DNA of 34,954 bases. It comes from a virus. Both the position numbers and the translations under genes were made by a program. Below, piece by piece: positions 3,147 to 24,774 of this stretch; position 1 is the first letter of the stretch, and the number at the start of each line of letters is the position of its first letter. The DNA lies in IMG/VR virus record IMGVR_UViG_3300028025_001215, positions 1 to 34,954 of that record; one strand, given 5' to 3'. Under the pieces are notes generated by a model. The model searched no databases. It saw only the letters and a program-made list of their open reading frames with translations, and was not told where the DNA came from.

Positions 3147-3147
3147 A

Positions 3148-3197
3148 TGTGTACTTTCCAAAAAGCACGGTATAATGCAATTGTTTACTTGTTAAAC
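3148..3197 (+). promoter_or_regulatory. Promoter P1 with GTTTACTT start-site box
   Basis: A perfect -10 (TATAAT, 3171-3176) lies in the longest left-hand gap, with a weak -35 (TGTGTA at 3148-3153, 17-base spacer). The block TATAATGCAATTGTTTACTT (3171-3190) recurs with 18 of 20 bases at 9580-9599. GTTTA at 3183-3187 and TAAAC at 3193-3197 form an imperfect inverted repeat over the predicted start site, so a repressor or phage-factor site is plausible. Drives the replication genes from 3233. Confidence 0.65.
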
Positions 3198-3232
3198 ACA
3201 CTAAAATTCTTAACTTCTTAAAGGCTAAACTT

Positions 3233-4548: not shown

Positions 4549-4559
4549 GGAGTTTCTAA

Positions 4560-5315: not shown

Positions 5316-5316
5316 T

Positions 5317-5445
5317 ATGCTGACCAGACAAGAGCTTATTCTTCAGTTCATGATCTCATTGGCGGCTAACTCCAATGTGCATCACACCGATATTATGCGG
5401 ATTGCCAATGCACTTGCGCATGAATATTTGGAATCACTAGGCTAG
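5317..5445 (+). CDS. 42-residue protein of unknown function
   Basis: A short frame exactly filling the gap between its neighbours: ATG one base after the previous TAA, and TAG one base before the polymerase ATG. The product is MLTRQELILQFMISLAANSN followed by a histidine-containing helix ending HEYLESLG. No family is recognised. Support comes from the perfect fit and plausible helical composition; there is no strong ribosome binding site beyond coupling to the upstream gene. Confidence 0.5.
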   Translation: MLTRQELILQFMISLAANSNVHHTDIMRIANALAHEYLESLG

Positions 5446-5446
5446 C

Positions 5447-7267: not shown

Positions 7268-7905
7268 TGGCATTTTCTTACTCGGCGGTCAAGCTTTATG
7301 AGCAATGTCCTAGCAGGTATAAGTTTAATCGAATAGATCGACTACCTGAGCCTTCTGGTCCTGCCGCTGAAAGAGGAACATCCATACACTCTGAGATTGA
7401 GAACATACTCAATGGCAGTTTGATGCTGTTATCTGAACCGGTCCAACATCTGGCTGATAAGCTGGAAGGCTGGATACGACTAAAGGCTGCATCAGAGCTT
7501 AAGTTTGCTGTTGATCATGCATGGCAACCGGTTGACTACACAGCACCTGCAGCAATGCTTAGAGGCATTATTGACTTGTATGTAGAGCAAGGTGATGAGG
7601 CCACTGTGCTAGACTTTAAGACTGGCAAGGATAGAGATTACAGTGACCAAGTGTCTGTGTATGCTGCTGTTATCTTGGCGGCTAAGCCACACATTAAAAA
7701 GGTGAACTTGGTGATTGAGTTCCTTGACCTAAAGAAAACAACCACTTACAGCCCACTTACTCGTGACCAGTTGGAGGATATGAAAACACTGATCACAGGC
7801 AGGTTAGAGACGATCCGTAAAGATTCGATCTTTGCACCTAATCCATCCGGCTTGTGTAAGTTCTGCCATTTTCGTAAAAGCAATGGCGGGCCTTGCAAAT
7901 GGTAA
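7267..7905 (+). CDS. Cas4/RecB-like PD-(D/E)XK nuclease with Fe-S cysteines
   Basis: A 212-residue exonuclease-type protein. The nuclease core is visible: GTSIHSEIE with His41, RGIIDLY with Asp103, VLDFKTGK with Asp116 and Lys118, and DQVSVYAA giving the QxxxY motif (Gln128, Tyr132). One cysteine near the N-terminus (EQCPSRYKF, Cys14) and three at the C-terminus (CKFCHFRKSNGGPC: Cys197, Cys200, Cys210) match the four-cysteine 4Fe-4S arrangement of Cas4 and AddB-like nucleases. No CRISPR array is nearby, so a role in phage recombination, end processing or host DNA degradation is more likely. Translationally coupled to the polymerase. Confidence 0.9.
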   Translation: MAFSYSAVKLYEQCPSRYKFNRIDRLPEPSGPAAERGTSIHSEIENILNGSLMLLSEPVQHLADKLEGWIRLKAASELKFAVDHAWQPVDYTAPAAMLRGIIDLYVEQGDEATVLDFKTGKDRDYSDQVSVYAAVILAAKPHIKKVNLVIEFLDLKKTTTYSPLTRDQLEDMKTLITGRLETIRKDSIFAPNPSGLCKFCHFRKSNGGPCKW

Positions 7906-8186
7906 CTAAAGTTATACTTGAACGTGATCTTGAAAAATATTTCACGGCTCAGTGTAAGAAGCATAAGCTTTTGTCATTAAAGCTGCATGTGAAGTTTGCA
8001 AGAGGCTGGCCTGATCGTATTGTGCCGATCGAGAATGGCCAAGTCTTGTGGGTAGAACTAAAGCGGCCAGGTGGTAAGGTGTCAGCATTACAAGCCAAGG
8101 TGCATCAAGATCTAGATAAGCTTGGTCATAAAGTTTATGTCATAGATTCTAAAGAAGGGATTGACCGTGTACTGGGAACCGCATGA
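7899..8186 (+). CDS. VRR-NUC domain nuclease
   Basis: A 95-residue single-domain nuclease of the virus-type replication-repair family. The core is GWPDRIVP (Asp39), then VLWVELKRPGGKVSALQAKV with Glu53, Lys55 and Gln65, and a final strand HKVYVID. The ATG at 7899 is favoured over the TTG at 7893 and overlaps the preceding TAA. The family cuts branched or flapped DNA. Phages commonly place it beside an SNF2-type helicase, as here (20-base overlap with the next gene), suggesting the two proteins act together on replication or recombination intermediates. Confidence 0.93.
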   Translation: MVTKVILERDLEKYFTAQCKKHKLLSLKLHVKFARGWPDRIVPIENGQVLWVELKRPGGKVSALQAKVHQDLDKLGHKVYVIDSKEGIDRVLGTA

Positions 8187-9555
8187 GTATCAGAAGAAAG
8201 CTGTTAAGTTTTTAGTTGAGCATGGCTCTGGTCAGTTATGGCTAGACCCTGGCTTAGGTAAGACCAGTATTACACTGGAGACATTTAAGGTGTTGAAGGC
8301 TGCCGGTGCTGTAAAGAAAGCATTGATCGTGGCACCACTTAGACCGGCCTATGCTGTATGGCCTGAAGAGATTAAGAAGTGGGATAACTTTGCTGATATA
8401 AAGATCAGTGTACTGCATGGGCCTACGAAGGACCGATCTTTGTTAGACAAGGCAGATATACATGTGATTAACTTTGAAGGACTGCAGTGGTTGTCAAAGT
8501 CTTTGGCGGGTAAGCCATTTCCATACGATCTATTAGTGGTTGATGAGATTAGCTATTTACGGAACACACGAACTGAACGGTTTAAATGTCTATCGCCATT
8601 CCTTGACAAGTTTAAGCGTCGGTTCGGATTAACTGGTTCACCTGCACCAAATAGCTTAATGGACATCTTTGGTCCACAATTGGTGATTGATCGTGGTGCC
8701 ACATTTGGTCGGTTCATCACACACTTTCGGACAAACTACTTCTATCAGACCGGCTATGGTGGTTACACATGGGCACTGAAGTCTGATTCAGCTGACAAGA
8801 TCTATGAGCTGTTGGCTGACAAAGTCCTCCGTATGAAAGCTGAAGACTATCTGAACATGCCAGAGTTGCTGCTTAATCGGGTCTATGTAGACTTACCTGA
8901 TGCAGCCAAAAAGCTTTACAAAGAGCTTGAAAGCCAACTATTGATTGAGTTTGAAAGTGACCAAGTCACGGCTACTAATGCTGCAGTGGCTGTTGGCAAA
9001 TGTCAGCAAATAGCAAATGGTGCAATCTATTTAGATGACACCGATCATGAATACAAAATTATTCATACTGCAAAGATAGATGCTCTAGATGAGTTGATCG
9101 AAGGGCTGAATGGCAAACCTTGCATTGTAGGTTACCACTTCAATCATGATCTAAAGCGGTTACAGAAGTATTTGCCAAGTGCACCGCATATTGGTTCAGG
9201 GGTTACGCCAAAAGAAATGCAAAAAGTGATTGACAAATGGAATGCTGGTGACATACCAGTTTTATTTGCGCATCCACAGTCGGCAGGTCATGGGTTGAAC
9301 CTGCAAGGTACTGGTCACGCAGTAATCTGGTTTAGCAATACATGGTCATTGGAAGTCTATGACCAGTTTATTCGCAGGCTTTGGCGCCAAGGTCAGAGGA
9401 ACAACATTGTGGTTCATCAGATCATTGCTAGAGACACGATTGATGAAGCCATTGTGTCAGCCATTAACAGCAAAGACAAAACACAGCAAGCTCTTATGAA
9501 TGCAGTAAGAGACTATTCCAAACAAGTAAAAGAAAGAGAGGAAATAAAAATTTAA
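8167..9555 (+). CDS. SNF2-type superfamily 2 DNA helicase/translocase
   Basis: A 462-residue ATPase. GTG at 8167 is chosen because GAAGGGA at 8154-8160 is well spaced from it and touches the alternative TTG at 8161. Motifs in order: Q-like EPHEYQKKAVKFL, Walker A LDPGLGKTSIT (near residue 30), Walker B VVDEISYL, motif III GLTGSPAPNS, motif V AGHGLNLQGTGHAVIW and motif VI QFIRRLWRQGQ with its arginine finger. This is the phage SNF2 group that moves along duplex DNA and may remodel forks or help VRR-NUC. It is the last gene of the P1 operon; no DnaB-like helicase or primase is present in the window. Confidence 0.93.
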   Translation: MYWEPHEYQKKAVKFLVEHGSGQLWLDPGLGKTSITLETFKVLKAAGAVKKALIVAPLRPAYAVWPEEIKKWDNFADIKISVLHGPTKDRSLLDKADIHVINFEGLQWLSKSLAGKPFPYDLLVVDEISYLRNTRTERFKCLSPFLDKFKRRFGLTGSPAPNSLMDIFGPQLVIDRGATFGRFITHFRTNYFYQTGYGGYTWALKSDSADKIYELLADKVLRMKAEDYLNMPELLLNRVYVDLPDAAKKLYKELESQLLIEFESDQVTATNAAVAVGKCQQIANGAIYLDDTDHEYKIIHTAKIDALDELIEGLNGKPCIVGYHFNHDLKRLQKYLPSAPHIGSGVTPKEMQKVIDKWNAGDIPVLFAHPQSAGHGLNLQGTGHAVIWFSNTWSLEVYDQFIRRLWRQGQRNNIVVHQIIARDTIDEAIVSAINSKDKTQQALMNAVRDYSKQVKEREEIKI

Positions 9556-9556
9556 G

Positions 9557-9599
9557 TGTTTACTTTACAAAAACTATAGTACAATGCAACTGTTTACTT
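9557..9599 (+). promoter_or_regulatory. Promoter P2, near copy of P1
   Basis: The gap between helicase and the next gene repeats the P1 layout: TGTTTA (9557-9562), 17 bases, TACAAT (9580-9585), then GCAACTGTTTACTT over the predicted start site. TACAATGCAACTGTTTACTT (9580-9599) differs from P1 at two of 20 bases, and the upstream A-rich spacer is also similar. GTTTACTT occurs twice here, at 9558-9565 and 9592-9599. Drives the nucleotide-metabolism genes from 9618. Confidence 0.65.
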
Positions 9600-9617
9600 A
9601 ACAACTGAAAGGAAATC

Positions 9618-10067
9618 ATGAGTGATCCATACATCTACATAGCATCGCCATTCTTTAATGCAGACCAACTTGAAATAGTTGAAACCATTAAGAGTGTATT
9701 GGACAACAATAAGCTGCCGTACTTTAGCCCTAAAGACGAATGCATGTACAAAGAAGGTGAAACAACACCTGAGGAAGTCCTTGAAATAAACATCATGGGC
9801 TTAAACAAAACCGACATATGTGTATGTGTTACCGACGGCAAAGACCCTGGCACAATGTTTGAAGCCGGTTGGTGTTATGCCAAAGGTATTCCATTGATCT
9901 ATGTCTGGCTTGGTGGCTTACCTGGTCAAAAATTCAATCTTGTATTGGCAGCATCAGGTTCCGTAGTTCGTAGCTATGAACAACTAGACCTTGCAATTAA
10001 AGAGATTAAAGAGGTAGGCGCATTTATCCGTAGGAACTGGTCCGAGGAGAAGATGGACTATGAATAA
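9618..10067 (+). CDS. Nucleoside 2-deoxyribosyltransferase family protein
   Basis: A 149-residue protein of the family that breaks the N-glycosidic bond of 2'-deoxynucleosides or deoxynucleotides, moving deoxyribose to another base or to water. It has the N-terminal YIYIASPFFNADQ, the central DICVCVTDGKDPGTMFEAGW (probable catalytic Glu82, with Asp73 and Asp76 nearby) and FNLVLA near residue 106. A clear AAAGGAAA site precedes the ATG. First gene after P2 and followed with an 8-base overlap by an HD phosphatase, so the two likely act in the same salvage or pool-shaping step. Whether it is a transferase or a hydrolase (DNPH1-like) is unclear. Confidence 0.9.
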   Translation: MSDPYIYIASPFFNADQLEIVETIKSVLDNNKLPYFSPKDECMYKEGETTPEEVLEINIMGLNKTDICVCVTDGKDPGTMFEAGWCYAKGIPLIYVWLGGLPGQKFNLVLAASGSVVRSYEQLDLAIKEIKEVGAFIRRNWSEEKMDYE

Positions 10068-10572
10068 AGGCGATTTTGCTTTCTTTATGCAAAGCTATAC
10101 GCTTGAGCATACAAAACGCTATAGCATGAAGCCGGTGGTTCACCAAGAGAGTGTGGCAACACACAGTTTCTTTGTGTCCCTTGGCGTACTTATGCTATCC
10201 GGTACTTACAAGTTCGATGTTGACAAGGCCGTCAAAATGGCCATATGTCATGACTTAGCTGAAATGGAGATCTCTGATGTGAACCATTTGGTCAAGAAGA
10301 ACTTTCCAGTGGTTGCCAAGGCGCTTAAACTGGCGGAACACGATATTGTGCAAGGCTTTCCTGAACAGGTCAGAGAATATTGCACTATGTATCATGACGG
10401 ATCGCCAGAAGCATTAGTGGTTCATTATGCCGATGCCTTGCAATGCCTACAGTATTCATCAAATGAGATGGGGCTAGGCAATGGCGGCTACATGGTCGAT
10501 GTCTATGAAAATAGCAACAAACGGTTAGCGGAACTTGAGGAAAAACTTGAACCTTACAAGGTGCTGCCATGA
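10060..10572 (+). CDS. YfbR-like HD-domain 5'-deoxynucleotidase
   Basis: A 170-residue HD hydrolase that, by family, removes phosphate from deoxynucleoside monophosphates. Metal and catalytic residues are all visible: ESVATHSF with His35, ICHDLAEMEISD with His64-Asp65, Glu68 and Asp73 matching the HDxxExxxxD of E. coli YfbR, and HYADALQCL with Asp125. Its start overlaps the end of the deoxyribosyltransferase gene and its stop overlaps the next start (ATGA). The related DatZ enzymes of 2-aminoadenine phages are HD dATP triphosphatases, so a dATPase activity cannot be excluded from sequence alone. Confidence 0.88.
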   Translation: MNKGDFAFFMQSYTLEHTKRYSMKPVVHQESVATHSFFVSLGVLMLSGTYKFDVDKAVKMAICHDLAEMEISDVNHLVKKNFPVVAKALKLAEHDIVQGFPEQVREYCTMYHDGSPEALVVHYADALQCLQYSSNEMGLGNGGYMVDVYENSNKRLAELEEKLEPYKVLP

Positions 10573-10901
10573 AAACGACAGATCAAGTTTTAGAACAGAG
10601 AGGCGAGGTGTATGGTGATTTTTTTGAGGGTATCTCATTAGAAGCTGTTATCCTTGAAAATATAAAGGACAGGTATCGCAAGCAACATAAGCAAGAGATG
10701 GATCCTGTCTATGTTATTTATCTCTCTAAGATTGCCATGAAACTTTCTCGGTTGGCCGTATCCCCTAGGCATATGGACAGCTGGACAGACATTGCAGGTT
10801 ACGCTCGGTTAGTAGAAATTCAACTCACAAAGGAAATGAAAAATGCCAAAAGTCAGAAAAGAACAAATGCCGCATCTTCAACAGATGCACACAAAGCTTA
10901 A
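10569..10901 (+). CDS. DUF6378-like phage protein
   Basis: A 110-residue helical protein. Early RGEVYGDFFEG and later IYLSKIAMKLSRLAVSPRH followed by DSWTDIAGYARLVE match the pattern of a small phage family (DUF6378) often found beside nucleotide enzymes, with no proven activity. The 'K.sRl....... DsW.DiaGYa' block is the most conserved part. Start is an ATGA overlap. The last 59 bases overlap the ThyX-like gene in another frame, so its C-terminus (NAASSTDAHKA) is probably dispensable. Confidence 0.78.
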   Translation: MKTTDQVLEQRGEVYGDFFEGISLEAVILENIKDRYRKQHKQEMDPVYVIYLSKIAMKLSRLAVSPRHMDSWTDIAGYARLVEIQLTKEMKNAKSQKRTNAASSTDAHKA

Positions 10902-11766
10902 ATTCGGTCAAGCTGTAAAGCCTATCGAGTTTGTCAATCAGTTGGAGAATATAGACGTACAGATCGTCCATGCCCCAACCATTCCTGAGTTTCGTAAGAC
11001 TATTTCAGTCTTCTTAATGAATACATGGAATGACAAGATTGAATGGGATTTCCCCGAGGACGCCATCAGTCAGACTATTGATGAGCTATTCCGGTATGAA
11101 CTGCTACCTACTGCCATGGAAACGATTAACATTACTTGGTCGGTTAATGGTATGGATATGGTAGACACAACGCACCTAATCAGACATCGTCTGTTTAGTT
11201 TTGCGGCACAGGTGCATGGTGATCGCGATATGCGTGATGACCGTGTTGTAGTAAAACCCGGGATTATGGCCAACAAGGACTTCTATGATCGATACAAACA
11301 AATTACAGAGATGGCTCGTGGACTCTACGTGGATATGCTTGATAGCGGTTTGGTTCATGGTCTTGATGCCCGTACTGTTATGCCTAGGAACTTTGAGCAT
11401 TTTTATATGGTACGCTGCACAATTAAAGATCTTATTGGTTACTGCATCATGCGAGGCGATGAACAGATACAGACAACGGTAGACAACATCATTGCCATGA
11501 AGCTATGGCTGGAGATTCTTAAGAAGTATCCGTTCTTAAAAGGGTTGGTGGACTTCCGTAAGCCGGATCAGTTTTACCAACGTCAATCGGCCAAAGGTAA
11601 GACAAACATCTTCCCACCAAACGCTAAGAATGACAACTTTGACTGGTGTGAAGAACAGTTCTACCATCCAATCGGTCGTGATGAGTTTGCAGGTGGTGAG
11701 GTCTACCTAAAGATTCGTGAAGACTTGCTTAAACAAATCGATGCTATCGAAAAGAGGTACTTCTAA
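10843..11766 (+). CDS. Divergent ThyX-like flavin-dependent thymidylate synthase
   Basis: A 307-residue protein resembling ThyX, which makes dTMP from dUMP with FAD, NADPH and methylene-tetrahydrofolate. It has ETINITWSVNGMDM and LIRHRLFSFAAQVHGDRDMR (Arg114-His-Arg, with Ser119), then DARTVMPRNFEHFYMV and IKDLIGYCIMRGDEQIQ. Canonical ThyX has RHRxxSxxxxSxR and a final AQ-E-I-R block. Here the second serine is replaced (Val124) and the final EIR is QTTVD, so substrate binding must differ. The ATG at 10843 has AAGGA at the right distance, although it overlaps the previous gene by 59 bases. It would use the dUMP made by the deaminase at 3714. Confidence 0.8.
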   Translation: MPKVRKEQMPHLQQMHTKLKFGQAVKPIEFVNQLENIDVQIVHAPTIPEFRKTISVFLMNTWNDKIEWDFPEDAISQTIDELFRYELLPTAMETINITWSVNGMDMVDTTHLIRHRLFSFAAQVHGDRDMRDDRVVVKPGIMANKDFYDRYKQITEMARGLYVDMLDSGLVHGLDARTVMPRNFEHFYMVRCTIKDLIGYCIMRGDEQIQTTVDNIIAMKLWLEILKKYPFLKGLVDFRKPDQFYQRQSAKGKTNIFPPNAKNDNFDWCEEQFYHPIGRDEFAGGEVYLKIREDLLKQIDAIEKRYF

Positions 11767-14052: not shown

Positions 14053-15690
14053 TTAAGGGTTGAACTGCTTGAATAGCTGTGTACGATAGTCAGAATAGTC
14101 TTTGTTGATTTTGTCATACAGGCTATTACGTCTAAAGAAACTTGCAGGTGGTGCCGTAGGCCCAACTCTATCAAGATGTTCTTGGTATGCATCAAACAAT
14201 GAGCCTCGTTGCTTATTCAGTAGCAACTGATTTCTTGCCCAAAGCTGTACCGCTTTAGACGAATCTTGAATTGTTGCCATTGGTGCTTGCAACAGTCTTG
14301 CATCATTGTCTGTTGGGTTCACACCTAGCAGGCCTTTGTTGGCTTTTACGTTGGATAAGAACTCAGATGCCAGAATGCGGTTAATATCACGAGCAATTTG
14401 TTGCTTCTCAGGCGGTAATTTCACCGTTTCTAAGAATTGCTGAACAGGTAAGCCTGCTCTTACACTGTAGTCGCCTACTTGCAGTTGTGCGCCTTCTTGA
14501 GCAACTCTTGCAAGGCCTGCAATCACACCTTGCTTTTGCATTAGTGCAAACACATCAGGGTGTTTGGTTGCAAGCATATCAAGATTTCGTAGATTAGAGT
14601 TTGATTGCTCTAAAAGCTGTGGTGTGTAGTTGATGATCTCATCACGCTTAGCAACCCATGGCTTATCAGCTTCTTTAACACGTGTTTCAGTCACTGCCGA
14701 TTGTGCTGCCAATGGTAGCTTAGAAAGATCAGATTCAACCGTTGGGTTTAGTGAACTTGCCACATTCTGTGCCATCTTAATGTCAGGCACTGTGCCTGTA
14801 CGAGAGTTAATCGGGCTAGGCATTGGCGCAATATCTGCACTACCTAACATTGTAGGCTTAGGCGGTGGTGATACAGGCACTGATGCGCCTGCTGAAGGTG
14901 CTGAACTCTTAGCCATGGCATTGTCAACAAGTGCTTGCTTCATCTTGTCAACAGGAATTGCACTTATTGGCGATACTGTTGATACGGGTGGTGTAGTGAC
15001 AGGTGCCGCTGCAGTTGGCGTAGTGGCTGTAGGTGCTGTAGATACTGGTGCAGTTGGTACAGGTGCTACTGGAGCAGGCGCTGCTGGAGTTCTACCACCG
15101 CCAGGAATAAGATCAAGAATACCTTTACCATATTTAGCAACAAGATCTGCTTGTGACATGTTGGCTTTAAAGTCTTCCGTCGCCATTCCTGCTATGTCTT
15201 TTTGCATGCCAAATGTGTTCTTCACAATCTCACCAACTTTAGGCGACAATTGTGACACAATAGGATAGATCTGTGCTAACTTAACTGCAGACCCAGGTGG
15301 GAATGAGCCTGTTTGTAGGCTTTGTGCAACTTGTGGTTCAGTCATGCCTAATGTGTCAGCCATGATCTTAAGAGCTTTTGATTGGTTCTCAATCTCATAC
15401 TTCTGACCGGCAATCTGCATCTTCATTTGTGACAATGGAATTTCAGCTTCTTGCTGACGTTCTTGCTGTGCACCAACAACATTTGCCACTCTACCGACCG
15501 CTTCACCTGCGCTACCTGTACGACCCGGATTAAATAGTTCGCCTGCTACTTGAAACATATTAGGGCCACGATTTGCCCTCATTTCTAATGCATCTAATGT
15601 CTTTTGTAGCGCTTGAAAATATTCTTTCTTTGCTGCATCATCAGCACCTAGCATAGAAGGTGCTGCTGGAACTGTTGTAGGTAATGCCAT
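14053..15690 (-). CDS. Probable virion structural/internal protein, helical with Pro-rich linker
   Basis: A 545-residue protein. The N-terminal 190 residues are helical (KKEYFQALQKTLDALEMRAN; QVAGELFNPGRTGSAGEAVG). Residues 200-245 are a Pro/Ala/Thr repeat linker (APAPVAPVPTAPVSTAPTAT). The C-terminal 220 residues are helical again (QLLEQSNSNLRNLDMLATKH; LPPEKQQIARDINRILASEF). GGAGAA precedes the ATG, inside the end of the preceding gene. This helix-linker-helix layout is common in phage internal or ejection proteins; no enzyme motif (for example a transglycosylase Glu site) is evident. Name given by context only. Confidence 0.68.
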   Translation of the reverse strand: MALPTTVPAAPSMLGADDAAKKEYFQALQKTLDALEMRANRGPNMFQVAGELFNPGRTGSAGEAVGRVANVVGAQQERQQEAEIPLSQMKMQIAGQKYEIENQSKALKIMADTLGMTEPQVAQSLQTGSFPPGSAVKLAQIYPIVSQLSPKVGEIVKNTFGMQKDIAGMATEDFKANMSQADLVAKYGKGILDLIPGGGRTPAAPAPVAPVPTAPVSTAPTATTPTAAAPVTTPPVSTVSPISAIPVDKMKQALVDNAMAKSSAPSAGASVPVSPPPKPTMLGSADIAPMPSPINSRTGTVPDIKMAQNVASSLNPTVESDLSKLPLAAQSAVTETRVKEADKPWVAKRDEIINYTPQLLEQSNSNLRNLDMLATKHPDVFALMQKQGVIAGLARVAQEGAQLQVGDYSVRAGLPVQQFLETVKLPPEKQQIARDINRILASEFLSNVKANKGLLGVNPTDNDARLLQAPMATIQDSSKAVQLWARNQLLLNKQRGSLFDAYQEHLDRVGPTAPPASFFRRNSLYDKINKDYSDYRTQLFKQFNP

Positions 15691-15692
15691 AT

Positions 15693-16727
15693 TTATTCTC
15701 CGTAAGTAATAACATTACCACTTTCGTCTCTTGGGTATGGGACGTTATTTGCATCAGTACCCATCAAGAAGTTGGTGCCTGTGTTTGTCACACCGCTCAT
15801 GCCTGTATTGCCACCACCAAACAGATCTGATATGCCACTACCTGCTGATGACAATTGAGTGCCTAGCCAATTGCCAAACGATGTAGGCTGACCAGATGCT
15901 GATGTGCTTGCACCAGATAGCAATGCACCAATACCAGCAATTTGTTGTAGTGGTGATGCTGAATAAGCACCGGGAATCGGTCCAGTGTATGTCGAATTGA
16001 CTGATGTAGGCACTTGATAGCCACGTAAAGCAGCTGCACCAGTGTTTAGTGTTTGTAGTGGGAATAACTGCTCATTTTGTGCAATTGTTTGTTGTTGACC
16101 ACCCATGGTAGACAATGCATTGATGTCAGCCAAGCTTAGATTCTGACCAGTAGTGGCCAAGTTACCTAGCTGATTAGATGCCGCAAGCTTGTTCGCCTGT
16201 TCCTGTTGGGCCGCACTTAGTGCTTGGGTATATCCGGTTTGAAGTGCTTGTGCCTGGTTCAGATTAAGGTTCTGCAACCCCGTGTTAATGGCTTGACCTA
16301 GTACCTCGGCACCACGCTTTGAACCGAACTGACCTGAACCAACAGATGCTGCAGTGGCTTGTGGCGCCAAGAACTGGCTAATGTTTCTTTGACCTAGATC
16401 ACCAAGTGCATTCACCACATTCTCGGTGTATGGCGTCATGTACTTACTAACATTGCCTGCTACATCGGCATTGCCTACACTAGATGCTAATCCAGTTGCT
16501 TGTTGTACCGTAGGTTGGTATGTGCCAGGAAGTGCACCAGCTGCTTGGAATGCTTGCTGTTGTAGTGGTTGTGCACCAACATACTGAGCCGCATTTGGTC
16601 CTGTAGTTTGACTGGTTACATTGCCTGCTAAATTACTTAAGTAATCAGTATACCAGCTAGGCGCTGTAGTTGTTTGACCTTGTGTGGTCGTAATATTCGG
16701 TAATGGACTGCCTTGTGTAAGTGCCAT
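15693..16727 (-). CDS. Probable virion protein (GSGQFGSKRGAEV type)
   Basis: A 344-residue Gln/Ala/Asn-rich protein. Conserved-looking parts are PSWYTDYLSNLAGNV near the start, YMTPYTENVVNALGDLGQRN, and ASVGSGQFGSKRGAEVLGQA near residue 130. These blocks recur in short-tailed phage virion proteins found next to DNA ejection proteins. The rest (QTLNTGAAALRGYQVPTSVN; Gly/Ser-rich end) is low complexity. GAAAGG precedes the ATG. Likely part of the tail or ejectosome; direct evidence is limited to composition and position. Confidence 0.7.
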   Translation of the reverse strand: MALTQGSPLPNITTTQGQTTTAPSWYTDYLSNLAGNVTSQTTGPNAAQYVGAQPLQQQAFQAAGALPGTYQPTVQQATGLASSVGNADVAGNVSKYMTPYTENVVNALGDLGQRNISQFLAPQATAASVGSGQFGSKRGAEVLGQAINTGLQNLNLNQAQALQTGYTQALSAAQQEQANKLAASNQLGNLATTGQNLSLADINALSTMGGQQQTIAQNEQLFPLQTLNTGAAALRGYQVPTSVNSTYTGPIPGAYSASPLQQIAGIGALLSGASTSASGQPTSFGNWLGTQLSSAGSGISDLFGGGNTGMSGVTNTGTNFLMGTDANNVPYPRDESGNVITYGE

Positions 16728-16729
16728 GA

Positions 16730-18829
16730 TTAACCTTTCATGTATTCAAGAGGCGACTTGGCTTTAGGCGGAATCTTTCCCGCTGGTGCTGATCGTTTGT
16801 GTTTACGTATGTTTTCTCGCATTTTATCCAGTATCCTTGCGCCTGCATCATTTGAGCCATTACCGAGTGCGGCAACTGTGTCGGCATCGAACACATACTC
16901 ACCGTCAGCTAGCATAGCTGGAATACTGTCAGACTGTCCGTCACCTTCACCCTTCACATGGTGGCCAGTGGCGCCAGTAATGAACTCCGGATTGTGCTCA
17001 GCTAGACCACCTTTAGCAAAGCCTGAGATTGTCTGATTGCTATCCAGCATGCTTAAGCCAGCCCGGGACAGTGCACCAGAACCAGTTGCAGAAGTTAGAC
17101 CTGCCGTATTGCTAGATGTGCCTGATGTTTTGAACGGCATACCTGATGATGGAGCAGCACCTGTGCCGGCATTCATCAGCGGAGTTGAACCGCCACTGCC
17201 TGCACCATAGTTGTAGTAGCTAGCCGGCTTAGATTTACCGGATAGAACTTGTAATAGCCGAGGATCGACATTTGCTAATTGTGGGTATAACTGTGTAAGT
17301 TCGCCTAAGACCATGTTTTGCTTCTCCAAAGGTGCTGCTGCCAACATTGTTGGGTTTGGCGCAGTAGGTAATGCCCCTAATGACGGGGTAGCAGCTGTTG
17401 TTTGTCCTACGTTAGACCCGCCTGTAATGGTCTGTGTCAGACCTGATACAGGTGCCGATGTGCCTACACTCGCAGTAGGCGTTGCTGTAGGCTTTACCGT
17501 AGGTGTTGCTGCTGTAGTTGTAGGTTGTCCACTTAGATCTAACTGAATGTCGCCAGTATACGGTTCACGAGGTGCAGTGACTACAATCTCAGGTATCTCA
17601 TCAACCGGCGCAGACGCTGGTGCTGGTGCAGTCACTACAACTTCAGGCATTTCAGCTACTGGCAAAGCGCCTGTCGATGGTTGCACAGTCGGTTCTACTA
17701 TTGGCGTTGACGGCAATGCACCGGTATTCACAGTGTCGGCAGTCGTTACATCAGGTATTGTTGTAACCTCAGGCATTGGCTGATTCTGCAATTGCGTCTG
17801 AAGGTCTGTCGCTGCTTGATTAGGCACAAACCAAGCATTCTGATACTGATCGTAGTAAGCGCCTTCAGGCTTCTGGTCAGACATCGATGCAGGCATCAAG
17901 TCATAGCCAAATGGTGCCTTTACTGTATTTGCTGATGAGCTCTCAGCAAAGATAGGTGCACCAGACACTTCAACTGTCGGTAGTGCACCGTCAGTCGATG
18001 CCACTTGTGTGCCACCCGGAACTTGTACAGGCTCAGCCACTTCAGTGGTAGGCAGTGCTCCATCGGTCGATGCTACTTGTGGGCTACTAGGTAGTGCACC
18101 CGTCGATTGTGATTCTTTGTACTGCGCTTTTGCTTCATTAATGCCTGCCATCAATGCACTATCAACTAATGCTTGTGATGGATCACCACCTCTTAGTGCT
18201 GCTGATACAGTATTGTTGACAATTGACTGTTGTGCTTTTGTTAAGTCATCATAGCCAGGGATCTGTGCTGTAATTGATGGAACGCCTGCCGATATACCAC
18301 CATTCATTAAAGCAGTCAGAGGGTCTTGCCCTCGTATGATGTTTGCTGCAGTACTGCCTGCAACTTTGCCTTCAGGCGTAATCTTTGGTGGTATAGGAAT
18401 TGTAGGTGTAGATGCGCCAGTGGCAGGGTTAAACCCACCGCCTACATCGATATTGTCAGGACCACGAACACTGCCAACTTCAGGTGTGCTAACATATTCA
18501 GCAATAGTATTTGCAGCCCAACTTGTGGCGCCTGCTTTTGCACCAGACTCTAAAGCATCATTGATGTCAGCACCATGAGCAACTGCAACAGCCGTATTGG
18601 CTGCCATCACATACATAGGATTGCCTGAAGCAGCTGCTGCTATCTTTAAAGATGTACCTACAGGGTCTTCTTCAAATGCATCATAAGTTTTTTGTACAGC
18701 CTCGACAACAGGCGTTGCAACTTCATCGATTACGGCTTGGCCTACATCTTGTACTGTATCGCCAACATCAGAGACTGCATCACTTACACTGCTGCCTAAG
18801 TCACTTACTGCATCTGCTACTGCACCCAT
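16730..18829 (-). CDS. Large virion-associated protein with DGQSDSIPAMLADGE C-terminal domain
   Basis: A 699-residue protein. Residues 1-240 are Ala/Asp-rich and contain three related segments (around 80-108, 160-190 and 208-237: HGADINDALESGAKAG, RGQDPLTALMNGGISAG, RGGDPSQALVDSALMAG). Residues 240-490 are a linker with six GALP units and two (M/I)PE(V/I)VVTAP units. Residues 605-680 carry the conserved phage block EGDGQSDSIPAMLADGEYVF, VAALGNGSNDAGARILDKMR and IRKHKR. That block is frequent near the tail/ejection genes of short-tailed phages, without a proven role. GGGGAAA precedes the start. Confidence 0.78.
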   Translation of the reverse strand: MGAVADAVSDLGSSVSDAVSDVGDTVQDVGQAVIDEVATPVVEAVQKTYDAFEEDPVGTSLKIAAAASGNPMYVMAANTAVAVAHGADINDALESGAKAGATSWAANTIAEYVSTPEVGSVRGPDNIDVGGGFNPATGASTPTIPIPPKITPEGKVAGSTAANIIRGQDPLTALMNGGISAGVPSITAQIPGYDDLTKAQQSIVNNTVSAALRGGDPSQALVDSALMAGINEAKAQYKESQSTGALPSSPQVASTDGALPTTEVAEPVQVPGGTQVASTDGALPTVEVSGAPIFAESSSANTVKAPFGYDLMPASMSDQKPEGAYYDQYQNAWFVPNQAATDLQTQLQNQPMPEVTTIPDVTTADTVNTGALPSTPIVEPTVQPSTGALPVAEMPEVVVTAPAPASAPVDEIPEIVVTAPREPYTGDIQLDLSGQPTTTAATPTVKPTATPTASVGTSAPVSGLTQTITGGSNVGQTTAATPSLGALPTAPNPTMLAAAPLEKQNMVLGELTQLYPQLANVDPRLLQVLSGKSKPASYYNYGAGSGGSTPLMNAGTGAAPSSGMPFKTSGTSSNTAGLTSATGSGALSRAGLSMLDSNQTISGFAKGGLAEHNPEFITGATGHHVKGEGDGQSDSIPAMLADGEYVFDADTVAALGNGSNDAGARILDKMRENIRKHKRSAPAGKIPPKAKSPLEYMKG

Positions 18830-18830
18830 A

Positions 18831-19268
18831 TCATTTCCCCAAGTTCAGCACAATGCGGAATCCGCCATTGCTGGTTTTATATTCTTTGAACCCCATCCTA
18901 GGCATAGGAGGAGCTTTAGCAATTGTGTGAAATAGCTTACTAATTGCAGGGTCTGTGAATTCAGTCACAAGCACGTCCATCTGCATATCGTTCTTGGCAT
19001 ACACTACATACTTCTTACTGTTAGCCACGAAGTTAGCAGCTGTATCGGCATTTAATGCTTTAAAGAAGCCTTGACCATTCTTACCTTCATGCAAAATAAA
19101 AACAGTATTGCCAATTTGCTTAACATCTGTGTTTGGCTGTGTAACTTCAGTCAGAATTGCAGGAATTGCCATCTTAGGCGGATAAGGCGACTTGGTATTC
19201 TTTAGAGCAATGGCCATGATCTCTGCAAAATCAAGCGTTTGTTTTTTGCTATCGACCATCTGTGTCAT
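18831..19268 (-). CDS. 145-residue protein after the KS gene, possible GNAT-like acyltransferase fold
   Basis: The start lies immediately after the ketoacyl synthase stop, so it shares the ACP/KS transcript. Visible parts: a helical N-terminus (KQTLDFAEIMAIALKN), a strand NTVFILHEGKN, a helix ADTAANFVANSKKYVVYAK, then VLVTEFTDPAISKLFHTIA and a last hairpin MGFKEYKTSNGGFRIVLNLG. This order of strands and helices, and the final 'MGF' hairpin, could fit a GNAT-type fold, but the acetyl-CoA-binding Q/RxxGxG/A loop is not present. It may also be a virion protein. Acyltransferase is a hypothesis prompted by its neighbours; confidence in the gene is high, in the function low. Confidence 0.6.
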   Translation of the reverse strand: MTQMVDSKKQTLDFAEIMAIALKNTKSPYPPKMAIPAILTEVTQPNTDVKQIGNTVFILHEGKNGQGFFKALNADTAANFVANSKKYVVYAKNDMQMDVLVTEFTDPAISKLFHTIAKAPPMPRMGFKEYKTSNGGFRIVLNLGK

Positions 19269-20375
19269 TTAGACCTCCAACGACAGCACAGCTGCCGAAT
19301 ACACATTGCCCATACCTGCGGCGATACTTAGTATGTCGCCTTGCGGAACATTTACATCTTCGGATAAGAATGTCTCATCATATTCCGTTCTATTGGCAAT
19401 GGCTGGTACACGCTCATCAGACACAATGTCATCAATCAATAGCAATGTCTCCAGCAAGCCACTGGCACCCATGGTATGACCAATCTTCTGCTTATATGAG
19501 GTAGCCACATACTTATCTAACGTATACTTTAGTGCAGTCTTCTCAGCTACATTGTTTGTTTTTGTGCCTGTGCCATGCGTCTTCACAATGCCGATGTGCT
19601 CAGCAGGTGTGCAAGAAATATTAAGAGCGCCTTCAATAGCACGAACAAACCCTTGACCGTCTTCACGTTGACCAATAGCATTTGAGTGATCCTCTCCTGC
19701 TGTATAGGCGCCTTTAAGCACTGCTATAGGGTTTTCAGACACATCATCTGACTCAAACACCGCCAAAGCAGCACCTTGACCAACATAGAACCCATAGTTC
19801 GTGCTGTCAAATGCTGATGGAAGTATGCCGGTCTGTTCTTCTTTCCAAGACAAAGAAGCTCTGGCTTCACCAAAAAAGTCTAGCACTGAATTCGATACAG
19901 CATCTTCGACCGTTAGCACCACTACTCTTTTGAATCCGTAGTAGTTGATGAGGGTTTGGACGTCCATAAGGGCTTTGAGGCTTGATGCACATGCCGTGGC
20001 ATCGGTAACAACATGATCTGTAGCGCCCAAAGATTGCGCCGTTCTACCTGCGTACACTTGAGTGAGAGTGAATGGTAAAAATTTGTATTCATAAGATAAC
20101 CTCGTAGGTGCTTTAGACCGTGGGTTGATTCCTGCAAAGTGTGAATTACCGCTAGCAAGTATAAATGCTGTTTTACCTACAGGATTCTCACGGAGCTCTT
20201 TAACAAGTACTGGATCAAGCACTTTTTCTGCAATTCGATGTGGCGCATAAAACATGCCTGTCTTTACACGGTCATATGTCTCTGGAAACCAATGCACTTT
20301 TTGTGGGTAAGTAGCATCGCTCATCAGCTCAACATTAGTCGAGTAAGCAGTGCGATAGTGAGTAAGGTGAATCAT
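19269..20375 (-). CDS. Beta-ketoacyl-ACP synthase (KAS I/II type condensing enzyme)
   Basis: A 368-residue thiolase-fold condensing enzyme that joins an acyl chain on its cysteine to malonyl-ACP. The active site is complete: TDATACASSL with nucleophile Cys129, KTHGTGTKTNNVAE with His267, and KQKIGHTMGASG with Lys295 and His300. These correspond to Cys163, His303, Lys335 and His340 of E. coli FabF with nearly the same spacing. It is about 40 residues shorter than FabF: the N-terminal beta-strand region is replaced and the final GFGGTN loop is reduced to AAGMGN. It starts in an ATGA overlap with an acyl carrier protein gene. Its position among tail genes is most unusual. Confidence 0.92.
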   Translation of the reverse strand: MIHLTHYRTAYSTNVELMSDATYPQKVHWFPETYDRVKTGMFYAPHRIAEKVLDPVLVKELRENPVGKTAFILASGNSHFAGINPRSKAPTRLSYEYKFLPFTLTQVYAGRTAQSLGATDHVVTDATACASSLKALMDVQTLINYYGFKRVVVLTVEDAVSNSVLDFFGEARASLSWKEEQTGILPSAFDSTNYGFYVGQGAALAVFESDDVSENPIAVLKGAYTAGEDHSNAIGQREDGQGFVRAIEGALNISCTPAEHIGIVKTHGTGTKTNNVAEKTALKYTLDKYVATSYKQKIGHTMGASGLLETLLLIDDIVSDERVPAIANRTEYDETFLSEDVNVPQGDILSIAAGMGNVYSAAVLSLEV

Positions 20376-20656
20376 TTAATCTGTTCCAATGCCCACTCAA
20401 TCGATTCTGGATCACGCTTCTTGTTTAGCTCTATGAACGTATGCAGTTCTTGCACAGTCTCAGGCTGAAAGTCTTTTGACATTTCATCATCAATGTCATA
20501 AATCATGCCCATAAACATACCGATCATCAGCATGTCCAAGGAATCAAAGCAAGTCTCTTCAAACTTCTCGTCCATCCGCTCAATAGGTGTAAACTCATGA
20601 TGTGCTGGTCTAGCCACACGAGCAACTTTGTTAAGCAATTCAATGAAGTTAATCAT
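20372..20656 (-). CDS. Acyl carrier protein
   Basis: A 94-residue acidic protein. ATG at 20656 is used because it overlaps the upstream TGA (ATGA); a longer frame to 20713 only reads the neighbour in another phase. The centre CFDSLDMLMIGMFMGMIYDI holds the DSL phosphopantetheine site (Ser39), followed by DDEMSKDFQPETVQELHTFI, exactly the helix II-loop-helix III pattern of bacterial ACPs ('LD.vel...E..f.i.i.......i.tv.d...'). The N-terminal 30 residues are longer and more basic than in a host ACP. It must be loaded by a host phosphopantetheinyl transferase. Partner of the next gene, a ketoacyl synthase. Confidence 0.88.
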   Translation of the reverse strand: MINFIELLNKVARVARPAHHEFTPIERMDEKFEETCFDSLDMLMIGMFMGMIYDIDDEMSKDFQPETVQELHTFIELNKKRDPESIEWALEQIK

Positions 20657-20907
20657 GTTTGTTGTGTTTGGTTTGCAACAACACCAACTACGACTTGTGC
20701 CCAGTCTTGCCACTTAGCAAATATGTAAGGACTTGGTACGGCATCGCTACTAAACAAGCCAATACCGTGTAAGCCAGTAGCCCATTCTTGCCATTTATTC
20801 TCATCATGCGGTATTTCAAGCTGTTGACCGGCATAGGCTTCCACCATCAATGATGCCCATTGATCCCATGAAAGATTGCGTGGGTCATAGACAACGCCTA
20901 CTGTCAT
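20653..20907 (-). CDS. Small Trp-rich phage protein of unknown function
   Basis: An 84-residue protein linked by ATGA overlaps to the tail-hub gene before it and to the ACP gene after it. Tryptophans are regularly spaced: LSWDQWASLMVEAYAGQQLE, NKWQEWATGLHGIGLF and AKWQDWAQVVVGVV. The repeated W..WA pattern, about 25-27 residues apart, suggests three similar short helices. The family is known to me only as an unnamed small gene beside tail-hub genes in short-tailed phages. It might be a virion accessory or work with the ACP/KS pair; nothing in the sequence decides. Confidence 0.72.
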   Translation of the reverse strand: MTVGVVYDPRNLSWDQWASLMVEAYAGQQLEIPHDENKWQEWATGLHGIGLFSSDAVPSPYIFAKWQDWAQVVVGVVANQTQQT

Positions 20908-22904
20908 GAGTTGTAGCCTCGTACATCACCAAGCTCGGCATTCACTATGACTTTACCTAGTTGGTAGTTACCGCCTTGCACATTGCTAACAAACTTTAAC
21001 CGTAATTCGCGTCTTTGCTCACGCATATCTATCTTGTTCGTGGTTGGCGTAAAGTCGTATGCATCACTAACTTTATCAGCCGCTTGTGCAAATGGCCGAC
21101 CTGTAACATAGCATTGCATAGTGCCTGTCTGTACAAAGTCAGGCTCAACACGCTCAATACGAAGCCAACGGTTTTCACCTACAGGTGAATTTTGTGATGG
21201 ACCACCTGATACCCAACCAAGATCATTCGTCTCAAAATAGCTTTCGATTGCCGTTGCAACTACACCTTGTATTGCATCAGTACCAAATTCATGCTGATAT
21301 AGTGACACATATGACATCACATAGGTCAATGTAATGCTAAATGGCGTACCTGCAGTGGCCAAGCTAATAGTTAGCGTATTGCCTACTACATAGTTTAACC
21401 CTCTTGCAGTAATTGTAAAGTTCGTAACTACACCGCCTGCAACAGTAAAAGATGCTTGTGCACCTGTGCCTGCACCACCTACTAAGTTGTTGTATGTGTA
21501 AGTGCCATTGGTGTAGCCAGTACCTGCATTAGTAATCGTAAACAAGTTTACTGCACCGGTTTCATTAGTTTGCCAATCAGCATTGATAGGGTAATGAAAC
21601 ACTTGTGAAAAGTAGCCGTCTGATCTTCTTGACCCTAGTGCTTCACCAGCATCGTACCAGCAGTTTTCACGAATATTGTAGATGATGGCATCATTACATT
21701 CAGTAGAACTGCCTTTAGGATAGAACCACCATACTTCACCGAACCGAGGCACTTTAGTCACAAAGACTTTTGTTCTTTGCTCATAGTTTAGATTGTCAAA
21801 GAAGTAGTTCTGGTTAAATGGGTTAGGTATTTCTTTTACAACACCGTTGTACATCAGGAACCGATCAACACCACACCAATAATAGATGCCGTCATACTCA
21901 ATCACTGATTGGCTAGACAAAATAGATGACTGACTAGAGATTAAGTCATACCGCCAATACAATGTAGATGTCGTACCGCCTGAGTTTACAGTAGTAGGCG
22001 TATAGGACACACGGATTAATGAATCGATTGACCAGAATAACCCTGAAGGTGATGTCGTACCACCCCGAACAGGTAAACCTTGGACTATCTTTCCGGTTGC
22101 TACGTTAACCTCGTTTGCATCGGCAGATACCCAGTCATTAATGTTACCAGCCGAGCAGTTCTTAATCAATCCGGCATTCCCATAAACAAACACATATGGG
22201 TGCAATACAACCACACCGCCTGACACAGAAATCTGATTGTCAATGGTCAGTGTTGATGAACCAGTTAATGTGGCTGCATTTGAGATTGTGAATGTAGTGG
22301 CATTGTTCACCACAGTCACTGTTGTGCTAGATGGTATGCCTGTGCCTGTCACTACTTGACCTGCACCGATCTGTGTGGTTGATGACACAGTCACTGTAGT
22401 AGTTGAATTTAGCGTGGCTGCAATAGTGAACACGCCAATAGCACTTGCAGTAGTTGTGCCAATCACATTGCCAAGAACAGGCGTATTCACACTGTTGTTG
22501 ATGTCAGTTAAGTTTTGGCCTGGGTGTGCAAGCAGTATTTGATTGTTTGTACCATTTGTGTCTGTATACGTATCAAACTGCCAAAGATTATTTACATTCG
22601 GTGTAAAGTTTGTCAGTGTAATGTCAGTAACACCAGCACCTACACCGGCATTGCTAATAGGCACTACTTGCAAACCATCTGAATAGCCACTATAGACATC
22701 GTTAAAGTTGTTTTGTGGGTTAACGTAAATGCCTCTAGATGGACCGGCTAAGTTGTTCACAATCTCTCTATAGCCGCCAATCTTACGCGGTCTGCTTCTT
22801 TGAAACCTTACCCATCGGCCATCAGTATAAAACTGTCGATCAAATACAGTACCATCACGCTGTATTCCTGGCAGTGTGTCTAATGCAAATACTTTTGCTG
22901 TCAT
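20904..22904 (-). CDS. Tail hub / packaged-DNA stabilisation protein, P22 gp10-like
   Basis: A 666-residue beta-rich virion protein. The N-terminus (LDTLPGIQRDGTVFDRQFYT, then GRWVRFQRSRPRKIGGYREI) and the propeller-like body (YVFVYGNAGLIKNC; YYWCGVDRFLMYNGV; VPRFGEVWWFYPKG) match the P22 gp10-like hub that plugs the portal and carries needle or fibres. Two segments look inserted: residues 150-224, a Thr/Ser-rich Ig-like stretch, and residues 454-528, with NAGTGYTNGTYTYNNLVGG and RGLNYVVGNTLTI. The start overlaps the previous fibre gene (ATGA), with GGAGG supplied by that gene's coding end. The stop overlaps the next ATG. Confidence 0.85.
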   Translation of the reverse strand: MTAKVFALDTLPGIQRDGTVFDRQFYTDGRWVRFQRSRPRKIGGYREIVNNLAGPSRGIYVNPQNNFNDVYSGYSDGLQVVPISNAGVGAGVTDITLTNFTPNVNNLWQFDTYTDTNGTNNQILLAHPGQNLTDINNSVNTPVLGNVIGTTTASAIGVFTIAATLNSTTTVTVSSTTQIGAGQVVTGTGIPSSTTVTVVNNATTFTISNAATLTGSSTLTIDNQISVSGGVVVLHPYVFVYGNAGLIKNCSAGNINDWVSADANEVNVATGKIVQGLPVRGGTTSPSGLFWSIDSLIRVSYTPTTVNSGGTTSTLYWRYDLISSQSSILSSQSVIEYDGIYYWCGVDRFLMYNGVVKEIPNPFNQNYFFDNLNYEQRTKVFVTKVPRFGEVWWFYPKGSSTECNDAIIYNIRENCWYDAGEALGSRRSDGYFSQVFHYPINADWQTNETGAVNLFTITNAGTGYTNGTYTYNNLVGGAGTGAQASFTVAGGVVTNFTITARGLNYVVGNTLTISLATAGTPFSITLTYVMSYVSLYQHEFGTDAIQGVVATAIESYFETNDLGWVSGGPSQNSPVGENRWLRIERVEPDFVQTGTMQCYVTGRPFAQAADKVSDAYDFTPTTNKIDMREQRRELRLKFVSNVQGGNYQLGKVIVNAELGDVRGYNS

Positions 22905-24142
22905 GGAAATGTACCTCCACTAACACCGCCAGTAAAGTTGCCTGTGCCTGTAATCTCAAGTCCAGTTGCAGTCAATGCAAACCGGTTTGTGCCTAATACT
23001 GCAATGTCAAACTGACCTGCGCCATTTCGCCAAATGCCTGTATTCGTTTCAGCTGCAAAATTGATTGCCGGTGTGCCAACAGTGCCGTTAATGATGCTTA
23101 ATGATGTAGCGCCGGCTTGTACTGTATTGGCATTTAAGAAGTTTGTGCCATCGCATATTAGTGTGGCTTGTTGACCTGGCGGTATGGTTGCAGTTGCAGA
23201 GCCAACAATGCCGGTTGTGAGTGTAAGTGTGTAGCCATTGTCAACTGTTTGGTTAGACACTACATACAAGTTCACAACAGGCGGATAGGTCACAGTCACG
23301 TTACTAACAAGTGTACCTACATACTCTTGAATCAGATTGCCGGCTTCACTTGATGTTAAGGAGTATGCACCACCTGTGACAGGGTAAGTAAGCACAGTGA
23401 ATGCGAATGTAGGGCTAACACCATAGCCTACAGTGATGTATGCCGAACCATTACAGATGATGAATGCTGACTCATCTGGGTTAAATGTCTTGCTTGTTTG
23501 CCCGTCAATTAACTGACTACTTGTGGTCGATATAGTGAATGAGCCTGTACCATTGTTCTTAAACAATGTGAACCAGTTATTTGCAAGCGTTGCAGCCAAT
23601 GGCAGTGTGCCTGTACCAGCACCACTTGCCCATACTTTTACTTGTGCTCGGTCTGCAGCTAAGAATGTGTAAGGGCTTGTGATTGTCTGTGCTGGGTGGC
23701 TTTGGTTTAACGTAGCTGATATTGCCATTAAGCCATAGCCAGCCAACGTAGCAGCATCGGCAGATGATGTGCCAGTACCAAACCCTAGTACGCCCCAAGT
23801 GCCTGCAGTTGTGCTATTTGCCGTTAAGTAAATGTACTGAGCATTACTAGAACTAACCGTACAGATCGTGCCACCCGTGTAGTTCTTTACAGTGAAGGTT
23901 GAGCCTATACAACGAATCAGTGCATCTTGTCCTACCGACACTTGGTTGGCAGGCGGCATAATCAGACTGTAGCCGGTAGTACCAGCCGTGATGTCCATTA
24001 TCCTAGCTGCTGGTGATTCAGCAGGTGTTGCGCCAGACGGCCACTCTAACTGTAAGTCGCCTGTAAGTGTATACGAGGCATAGCTGACATCAGTTGGCTG
24101 AATAACATCGCCAGTGAATGGGGATACAAATGAGCCGGTCAT
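22901..24142 (-). CDS. Tail fibre-like protein ending in SGGTFP
   Basis: A 413-residue beta-rich protein. The N-terminus (GSFVSPFTGDVIQPTDVSYA, YTLTGDLQLEWPSG) is followed by repeated short strands and turns (TFTVKNYTGGTICTV; GLMAISATLNQSHPAQTITS) typical of trimeric fibre shafts. The C-terminal part (TPAINFAAETNTGIWRNGAG; GTNRFALTATGLEITGTG) is a phage fibre module. The last residues GGVSGGTFP contain an in-frame GGAGG that serves the tail-hub gene. Start overlaps the adaptor gene before it (ATGA). Probably a fibre or tail-decoration protein attached near the hub. Confidence 0.8.
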   Translation of the reverse strand: MTGSFVSPFTGDVIQPTDVSYASYTLTGDLQLEWPSGATPAESPAARIMDITAGTTGYSLIMPPANQVSVGQDALIRCIGSTFTVKNYTGGTICTVSSSNAQYIYLTANSTTAGTWGVLGFGTGTSSADAATLAGYGLMAISATLNQSHPAQTITSPYTFLAADRAQVKVWASGAGTGTLPLAATLANNWFTLFKNNGTGSFTISTTSSQLIDGQTSKTFNPDESAFIICNGSAYITVGYGVSPTFAFTVLTYPVTGGAYSLTSSEAGNLIQEYVGTLVSNVTVTYPPVVNLYVVSNQTVDNGYTLTLTTGIVGSATATIPPGQQATLICDGTNFLNANTVQAGATSLSIINGTVGTPAINFAAETNTGIWRNGAGQFDIAVLGTNRFALTATGLEITGTGNFTGGVSGGTFP

Positions 24143-24774
24143 GTGTCAAGCACCGTACTTTGTCTATCACCAATACGTGTCACATCTTCGGCTTTCAATA
24201 CTTGCATGATTGCTTGGTATTGCGCTTGCCACATTGGAATACGGTCGTCATTCTTTAAGAATGGCATTGCTTGCAAAAGTGACCCATACAACAACGCTTG
24301 TGGTGCATAAATTGTGAACCAGTTGGTTTGGTTTGTGCTATCCAACGGTTGATTACGCTCATAATAGAGCACCTCAAACGAGTAAGCTGCAGCAGGTGTT
24401 GGAGCCACTAACCAATGTGTGTAATCGTAGTCTGCATAAAACAAAGGCACACTAGTTTGTGTTTGATCTGGCCAATACTCACGTAAATACTCATACTTAC
24501 GCAGCAAAATTGGCTGACGTTCGCCACTTACAATCACATTCATTGACACTGTTTTGTGCCATCTAGCAGGTTTGTCAATCACAAACTGACCTATTGTCAT
24601 AGTGCTAGTGTTTACCGTCAAATTGCCAAGAAACTTAATCTCACTGGCGATCACTTGCTCTGCCAGCATAATGAAAAGTGGAATCTTGTCAAGCGTGGCA
24701 GTGTCTGTACGTTCCAGATAAGACTGGATATTCTCCGTAAGAGAATCGTATGTCATTACTGATGCAACAGTCAT
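24139..24774 (-). CDS. Phage adaptor / tail-tube A-like protein
   Basis: A 211-residue protein of the gp6/T7 gp11/P22 gp4-like adaptor type. Recognisable parts are SLTENIQSYLERTDTATLDK, PLFIMLAEQVIASEIKFLG, PARWHKTVSMNVIV, and YSFEVLYYERNQPLDSTNQT followed by APQALLYGSLLQAMPFLKND. The helix-beta-helix order and the final YAPQALLYG...A..F.K.D block are typical of head-tail or tube adaptors. AAAGGA precedes the ATG. A second adaptor-like protein is encoded at 33857, so one likely binds the portal and the other the tail. First gene after the endolysin. Confidence 0.8.
   Translation of the reverse strand: MTVASVMTYDSLTENIQSYLERTDTATLDKIPLFIMLAEQVIASEIKFLGNLTVNTSTMTIGQFVIDKPARWHKTVSMNVIVSGERQPILLRKYEYLREYWPDQTQTSVPLFYADYDYTHWLVAPTPAAAYSFEVLYYERNQPLDSTNQTNWFTIYAPQALLYGSLLQAMPFLKNDDRIPMWQAQYQAIMQVLKAEDVTRIGDRQSTVLDT

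Follow-up and report, generated by a model that had tools for sequence, protein, structure and literature searches.

The window analysed here is the whole of the 34,954-base virus record IMGVR_UViG_3300028025_001215, which carries a late operon on its minus strand. The operon encodes, in this order, a head-tail adaptor, a 413-aa tail protein, a 666-aa hub, an 84-aa protein, an acyl carrier protein (ACP), a beta-ketoacyl synthase (KS) and proteins of 145, 699, 344, 545 and 345 aa. Its main features are the following:

24139-24774, minus strand: head-tail adaptor of the SU10 adaptor family, where the tail module begins (PF24175, 6.8e-25; phrog_2941)
20904-22904, minus strand: tail hub of 666 aa, resembling the P22 'phage stabilization' protein (phrog_3287, virion structural, 1.1e-21)
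20653-20907, minus strand: 84-aa protein between hub and ACP, with an ATGA overlap on each side; retained in loci without ACP and KS
20372-20656, minus strand: ACP, 94 aa, DSLD motif with Ser39 as the phosphopantetheine site (family profile, AF2, Foldseek, invariant columns)
19269-20375, minus strand: FabF-type KS, 368 aa, with Cys129, His267, Lys295 and His300 (profiles, catalytic residues, phage-only clade, dN/dS)
18831-19268, minus strand: 145-aa GNAT-fold protein and candidate acyltransferase, encoded where P22 has gene 14 (AF2, Foldseek, KS adjacency)
16730-18829, minus strand: putative ejection protein, 699 aa, M-G-A-V N-terminus and amphipathic N-terminal region (weak C-terminal tape-measure PHROG matches, 3.8e-8)
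15693-16727, minus strand: probable late ejection protein, 344 aa (position; similarity in 24/32 long loci)
14053-15690, minus strand: probable late ejection protein, 545 aa (position only)

Three junctions (hub/84-aa gene, 84-aa gene/ACP and ACP/KS) are ATGA overlaps, and the 145-aa gene starts directly 3' of the KS stop, with a GGAGG upstream. The hub homologue in the phage genome MW202545 is annotated as a phage stabilization protein. A sequence-only reading of this DNA had described an ACP with a DSL site at Ser39, joined by ATGA to a 368-residue condensing enzyme and lying between hub and ejection-protein genes; the coordinates are exact, the sequences agree, and the placement in a late virion operon holds. 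That reading was right about the pair but missed the adjoining GNAT-fold gene (18831-19268).

Many genes in the early region of the window (2721-11766, plus strand) concern nucleotides and DNA: PRA-PH/MazG-like, pyrimidine dimer glycosylase, dCMP deaminase, DNA polymerase A, PD-(D/E)XK nuclease, VRR-NUC, SNF2 helicase, nucleoside deoxyribosyltransferase, YfbR-like HD and ThyX-like.

The carrier protein and the ketosynthase

The ACP of the window carries the motif Asp38-Ser39-Leu40-Asp41. Searched as a single sequence, it has no match in Pfam or the PDB, and the PP-binding family (PF00550) is touched weakly by 12 of 43 members of the ACP family (best 0.003), the window ACP not being among them. 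The identification proposed from the sequence is thus not recovered by Pfam from this protein alone, but a profile of the family does find ACPs, its matches in the PDB being almost exclusively of this kind. The AlphaFold2 model has a pLDDT of 92.3, and the best 50 Foldseek matches listed are all ACPs or carrier-protein domains, with weak E-values. The model is a helical bundle in which helix 2 is predicted to begin at the DSL serine. AcpP-type ACPs have the same bundle and the same serine where the second long helix begins; the phage protein differs in its length of 94 aa, with a C-terminal helix extension, and in that single sequences stay under the Pfam cut-off. The only invariant columns among the 43 ACPs are P17, D38, S39 and D41. 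The Asp-Ser motif is essentially universal: one of 159 ACPs (locus L152) misses the DSx[DE] pattern, and it still has DSL. Between closest relatives, dN/dS is 0.05-0.08.

The KS is recognized from its own sequence. Both Pfam halves exceed their cut-offs (ketoacyl-synt PF00109, 1.6e-9; Ketoacyl-synt_C PF02801, 2.3e-14), predicting the two-half thiolase-like fold, and the NCBIfam FabF model, at 2.3e-27, likewise confirms the family. FabF chains in the PDB match down to 2e-18. The protein scores 95.7 bits with the FabF equivalog TIGR03150, a long way under the cut-off of 493.75 bits. Cys129 lies in TACASS, His267 in THGTGT, and Lys295 and His300 in KQKIGH; in the alignment to E. coli FabF they land on their catalytic counterparts, with the FabF-like spacing that had been noticed from the sequence. 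All four are invariant in the 163 distinct KSs aligned (163/163), which excludes chance. This invariance, together with a dN/dS of 0.03-0.07 between closest KS relatives, bears out the earlier argument against decay.

Compared with FabF and FabB of FAS II, the phage KS has the same Cys-His-Lys-His active site, at nearly equal spacing to E. coli FabF, and both Pfam KS halves, and where it aligns with bacterial FabF-type sequences about a quarter of the positions are identical. It differs in being about 45 residues shorter than FabF, mostly on the N-terminal side. The gatekeeper Phe of FabF (FGFG) is replaced: the phage enzymes have GMG, with Met355 present in all 160 KSs that cover the region. 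A maximum-likelihood tree was built from 19 phage KSs and 36 bacterial ones, E. coli FabF and FabB among them. Its phage sequences form a single, separate clade, set apart by a branch of length 3.5 with 100/100 support. One clade on such a long branch indicates that the lineage has long been a phage one and does not stem from a recently acquired host gene. Altogether, the data point to an old phage enzyme whose substrate gating is probably altered, judging from what is known of FabF. Other KS matches among phage records, about 25% identical, come mostly from unannotated contigs labelled phage and resemble bacterial FabF.

The GNAT-fold neighbour and the protein encoded after it

Sequence searches of Pfam, PHROGs and the PDB give no significant match for the 145-aa protein, and its predicted fold alone reveals the relationship. 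The AF2 model (pLDDT 92.5) has the element order alpha-alpha-beta-beta-beta-alpha-beta-alpha-beta-beta, and Foldseek against the PDB returns GNAT acetyltransferases (best 1.6e-4, probability 1.00, TM about 0.5-0.6), with the acyltransferase domain of NcdE among the matches. The model therefore predicts a GNAT fold. Among 183 GNAT-fold sequences of this family, the CoA pyrophosphate loop Q/RxxGxG/A between beta4 and alpha3 is absent and an N-A-D-T (NADTA) type loop stands in its place; S, E, GNT and NxD show little or no variation, and no His or Cys is invariant. The dN/dS of closest relatives is 0.11-0.15.

RtxC acyltransferases have a GNAT fold and take their chain from acyl-ACP, and one of them, the GNAT-like ApxIC, lacks the CoA-contacting elements (PMC8339906). 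The phage protein would share with RtxC a GNAT fold without standard CoA elements, and with RtxC/HlyC and FeeM the proposed use of acyl-ACP. In contrast to these proteins, it has no sequence match to their Pfam families and, unlike HlyC, no invariant His, and it is not assigned to RtxC/HlyC on both counts. The resemblance to RtxC is to be read as an analogy, not as membership.

Matches among the BFVD viral models include a DUF2824 protein and an 'internal virion protein A'. P22 gp14 is itself a DUF2824 protein, and its gene is flanked by the tail needle gene and ejection gene 7. The two thus agree in their position between tail and ejection genes and in the Foldseek match to a DUF2824 protein; they differ in that no sequence similarity was detected between them and that P22 lacks ACP and KS at this place. 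Given the DUF2824 match and the position of gp14, having a GNAT-fold protein here is probably a wider podovirus feature. The new element is the ACP-KS pair joined to it, not a GNAT-fold protein at that place.

The protein encoded 3' of the GNAT-fold gene (in the window, the 699-aa protein at 16730-18829) starts with M-[G/S/A/P/T] in all 157 distinct sequences, which would leave a small N-terminal residue exposed after removal of Met. The N-terminal region of this putative ejection protein has an amphipathic look (VGDVVE-type, with abundant Val, Ala and Asp but little lysine), and no conserved lysine target is evident in the protein. From these sequences, N-terminal acylation is conceivable, and the 699-aa protein may possibly be its target; the small second residue is a weak indication, since the sequences share ancestry and abundant proteins often begin in this way.

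Occurrence and inheritance of the pair

The ACP-KS pair is carried by hundreds of mostly uncultured phages. A scan of IMG/VR with the KS found 214 relatives, and a scan led by a distant member at least 504. The sole close annotated phage genome is MW202545 (Manatee Spring), a complete circular genome whose KS is 67% identical. For 162 distinct KSs, the ACP gene abuts or overlaps the KS in all 160 cases with upstream DNA, and the 145-aa GNAT-fold gene does so in all 154 with downstream DNA; conversely, a KS accompanies 165/165 ACPs. Starting from the GNAT-fold gene, 181 loci contain both ACP and KS (176) or neither (5), never one alone (0), so that the pair is inherited as a unit, helpful to the phage yet dispensable. 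As the loci were collected by similarity to the KS, the ACP or the GNAT-fold protein, these linkage counts are not a census.

In the loci examined, the position of the pair inside the virion operon is constant, and it never occurs elsewhere. The surroundings are less stable: in 30 of the 124 loci with enough upstream DNA, nothing resembles the hub or adaptor of the window, and ACP, KS and the GNAT-fold neighbour are kept. At one locus (L083), these three are the only matches to the window among the operon genes compared. In 32 long loci, the KS has a median identity to the window of 66%, the hub one of 51% and the GNAT-fold protein one of 42%; among genes found in most loci, the adaptor (75%) alone ranks above the KS.

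The sequence-only reading had suggested a survey of related phages, and the result is conservation of the pair at the same position, with five related loci that have the GNAT-fold gene without ACP and KS (L144, 4638-5319; L206, 4926-5652; L333; L338; L121, 7455-10429). The GNAT-fold protein is therefore not strictly dependent on the pair. Two of these loci, L144 and L206, were read in detail and show a clean absence, with hub, 84-aa gene and GNAT-fold gene retained. L121 has a hub of a different kind and a short C-terminal remnant of a KS, which makes at least one of the absences a loss.

A culturable comparison is offered by the isolated Caulobacter phage GB2A (L170, 12001-15505). Its hub is 38% identical and is followed by a protein like the 84-aa one and then by a tape-measure protein; no ACP, KS or GNAT-fold gene lies between these.

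L083 (JAGYJQ010000016.1) is binned in a Balneolaceae MAG, and this contig carries phage-like capsid and tail genes together with the ACP, KS and GNAT-fold genes. It was the sole same-family genome_contigs match in the prophage search. Balneolaceae is a doubtful host: the contig resembles one of a phage that was binned together with the MAG, and no host is claimed.

A possible role in the virion

Sequence and predicted structure establish that ACP and KS are genuine, complete, strongly selected and inherited as one unit, and they very probably work together as enzyme and carrier. The locus is not a complete FAS II or PKS operon. In 30 long records of 40-68 kb, searches that did match bacterial controls gave no homologue of AcpS, FabD, FabG or FabA/Z, nor of a 4HBT thioesterase, with 0/30 for PF01648, PF13561, PF00698, PF07977 and PF03061 (PPTase, FabG-type reductase, malonyl transferase, dehydratase and thioesterase). 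Those steps must then be supplied by the host, and the pair alone is unable to make a fatty acid. The earlier proposal that the phage makes or diverts an acyl chain is supported in part, as far as a functional ACP and condensing enzyme are concerned.

The reading preferred here, held tentatively and at somewhat less than even confidence, is that of a late acyl cassette within the operon running from hub to ejection proteins: ACP and KS would make an acyl chain, and the GNAT-fold protein would pass it to an ejection or tail protein. The coupled starts in a late operon and the replaced CoA loop of the GNAT-fold protein speak for it. Host AcpS would place phosphopantetheine on Ser39 and host FabD would load malonate, which the phage KS would condense with a primer; the beta-ketoacyl chain, or a form reduced by host FabG/FabZ/FabI, would remain on the phage ACP. 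Less surely, the GNAT-fold protein might then accept the chain carried by the ACP and transfer it to an ejection or tail protein, a step modelled on RtxC/HlyC or FeeM, which are GNAT-fold users of acyl-ACP. A possible acceptor would be the exposed N-terminus of the next-encoded protein, where the chain could aid membrane entry. Late action on a virion protein had already been suggested from the sequence; the constant GNAT-fold neighbour strengthens the suggestion, which we still infer. That the pair serves virion-protein acylation is a possibility rather short of even, and it is doubtful that a dedicated KS-ACP pair builds a special, perhaps 3-oxo, chain which the GNAT-fold protein attaches to an ejection protein for insertion into the host envelope. 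Against the reading stands that other podoviruses such as P22 (DUF2824) also have GNAT-fold proteins here, and we know of no acylation in them. To our knowledge, no phage lipidates injected proteins in this manner.

The two genes could instead be AMGs that act on no virion protein: late in infection they would divert or speed host fatty-acid elongation and alter the make-up or fluidity of the membrane in favour of lysis or phage production. A FabF-type KS and an ACP are exactly parts of host FAS II, the remaining steps must come from the host, and phage genomes with acpP or fabG-acpP-fabF have been reported as AMGs (PMC8224337; PMC11705849). The Rhodobacteraceae prophage fabG-acpP-fabF and the single phage ACPs of those reports also are phage-encoded ACP and KS genes, but they are reported as metabolic AMGs, with fabG or alone, and no conserved virion-operon pair with a GNAT-fold neighbour is described there. 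The fixed position in the virion operon and the tie to the GNAT-fold protein fit poorly with such a role, host FabF already does the job, and a phage-only, long-branch clade with the gatekeeper Phe changed to Met in all sampled phage KSs is unlike a borrowed host gene. We consider this explanation unlikely, if a serious one. A fresh capture of host genes, or bacterial genes joined to a phage contig during assembly, has nothing in its favour beyond the bacterial nature of the families and a probability close to nil. It is refuted by the same arrangement in more than 150 distinct loci, by the complete circular MW202545 and by the one phage-only clade; the sequence-only reading had named absence from close relatives combined with an assembly break as evidence against the pair, and those loci rule this out.

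A product other than an acylated protein was also considered. FeeM-type synthases have a GNAT fold, and LuxI-type synthases make similar use of acyl-ACP. Long-chain acyl-ACP is the substrate of some N-acyl amino acid synthases (FeeM and relatives, PMC8762209). KS and ACP might provide a (3-oxo)acyl-ACP whose chain the GNAT-fold protein would couple to an amine, the product being an N-acyl amino acid or resembling an AHL, and the three genes do stay together. Nevertheless, the GNAT-fold protein has no Pfam similarity to LuxI-type or other known synthase families, its relatives occupy the same place in phages without KS, and late expression from a virion operon leaves little time for a signal, which makes such a small molecule rather improbable. 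Recruitment of the KS dimer and the ACP as assembly or virion proteins, with catalysis secondary, would agree with their site among virion genes and with the head morphogenesis annotation of P22 gp14, the positional counterpart of the GNAT-fold neighbour. The four KS catalytic residues and the ACP serine are nevertheless invariant where other positions are free to vary, and a scaffold would not need them; a structural role is very improbable.

KS and ACP belong to known families, and what appears new from the sequences is a phage-specific virion-operon unit with a GNAT-fold partner, an arrangement not found described in the literature searched. Fatty-acid genes in phages are commonly interpreted as metabolism taken over from the host, whereas here the KS and its carrier are phage-specific, among the better conserved parts of the virion operon, and bound to a GNAT-fold protein of the ejection module. 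This suggests that these phages make an acyl chain for assembling or infecting particles. The membrane chemistry by which short-tailed phages cross the envelope is poorly understood; if the late acyl cassette delivers its chain to an ejection protein, these phages would have a lipid-based means of crossing.

The KS of MW202545 (L002, 20001-21101) is annotated as a 3-oxoacyl synthase. The deposited start (20157) falls 156 bases downstream of the start that is homologous and in frame, and the deposited protein thereby omits the conserved first 52 residues.
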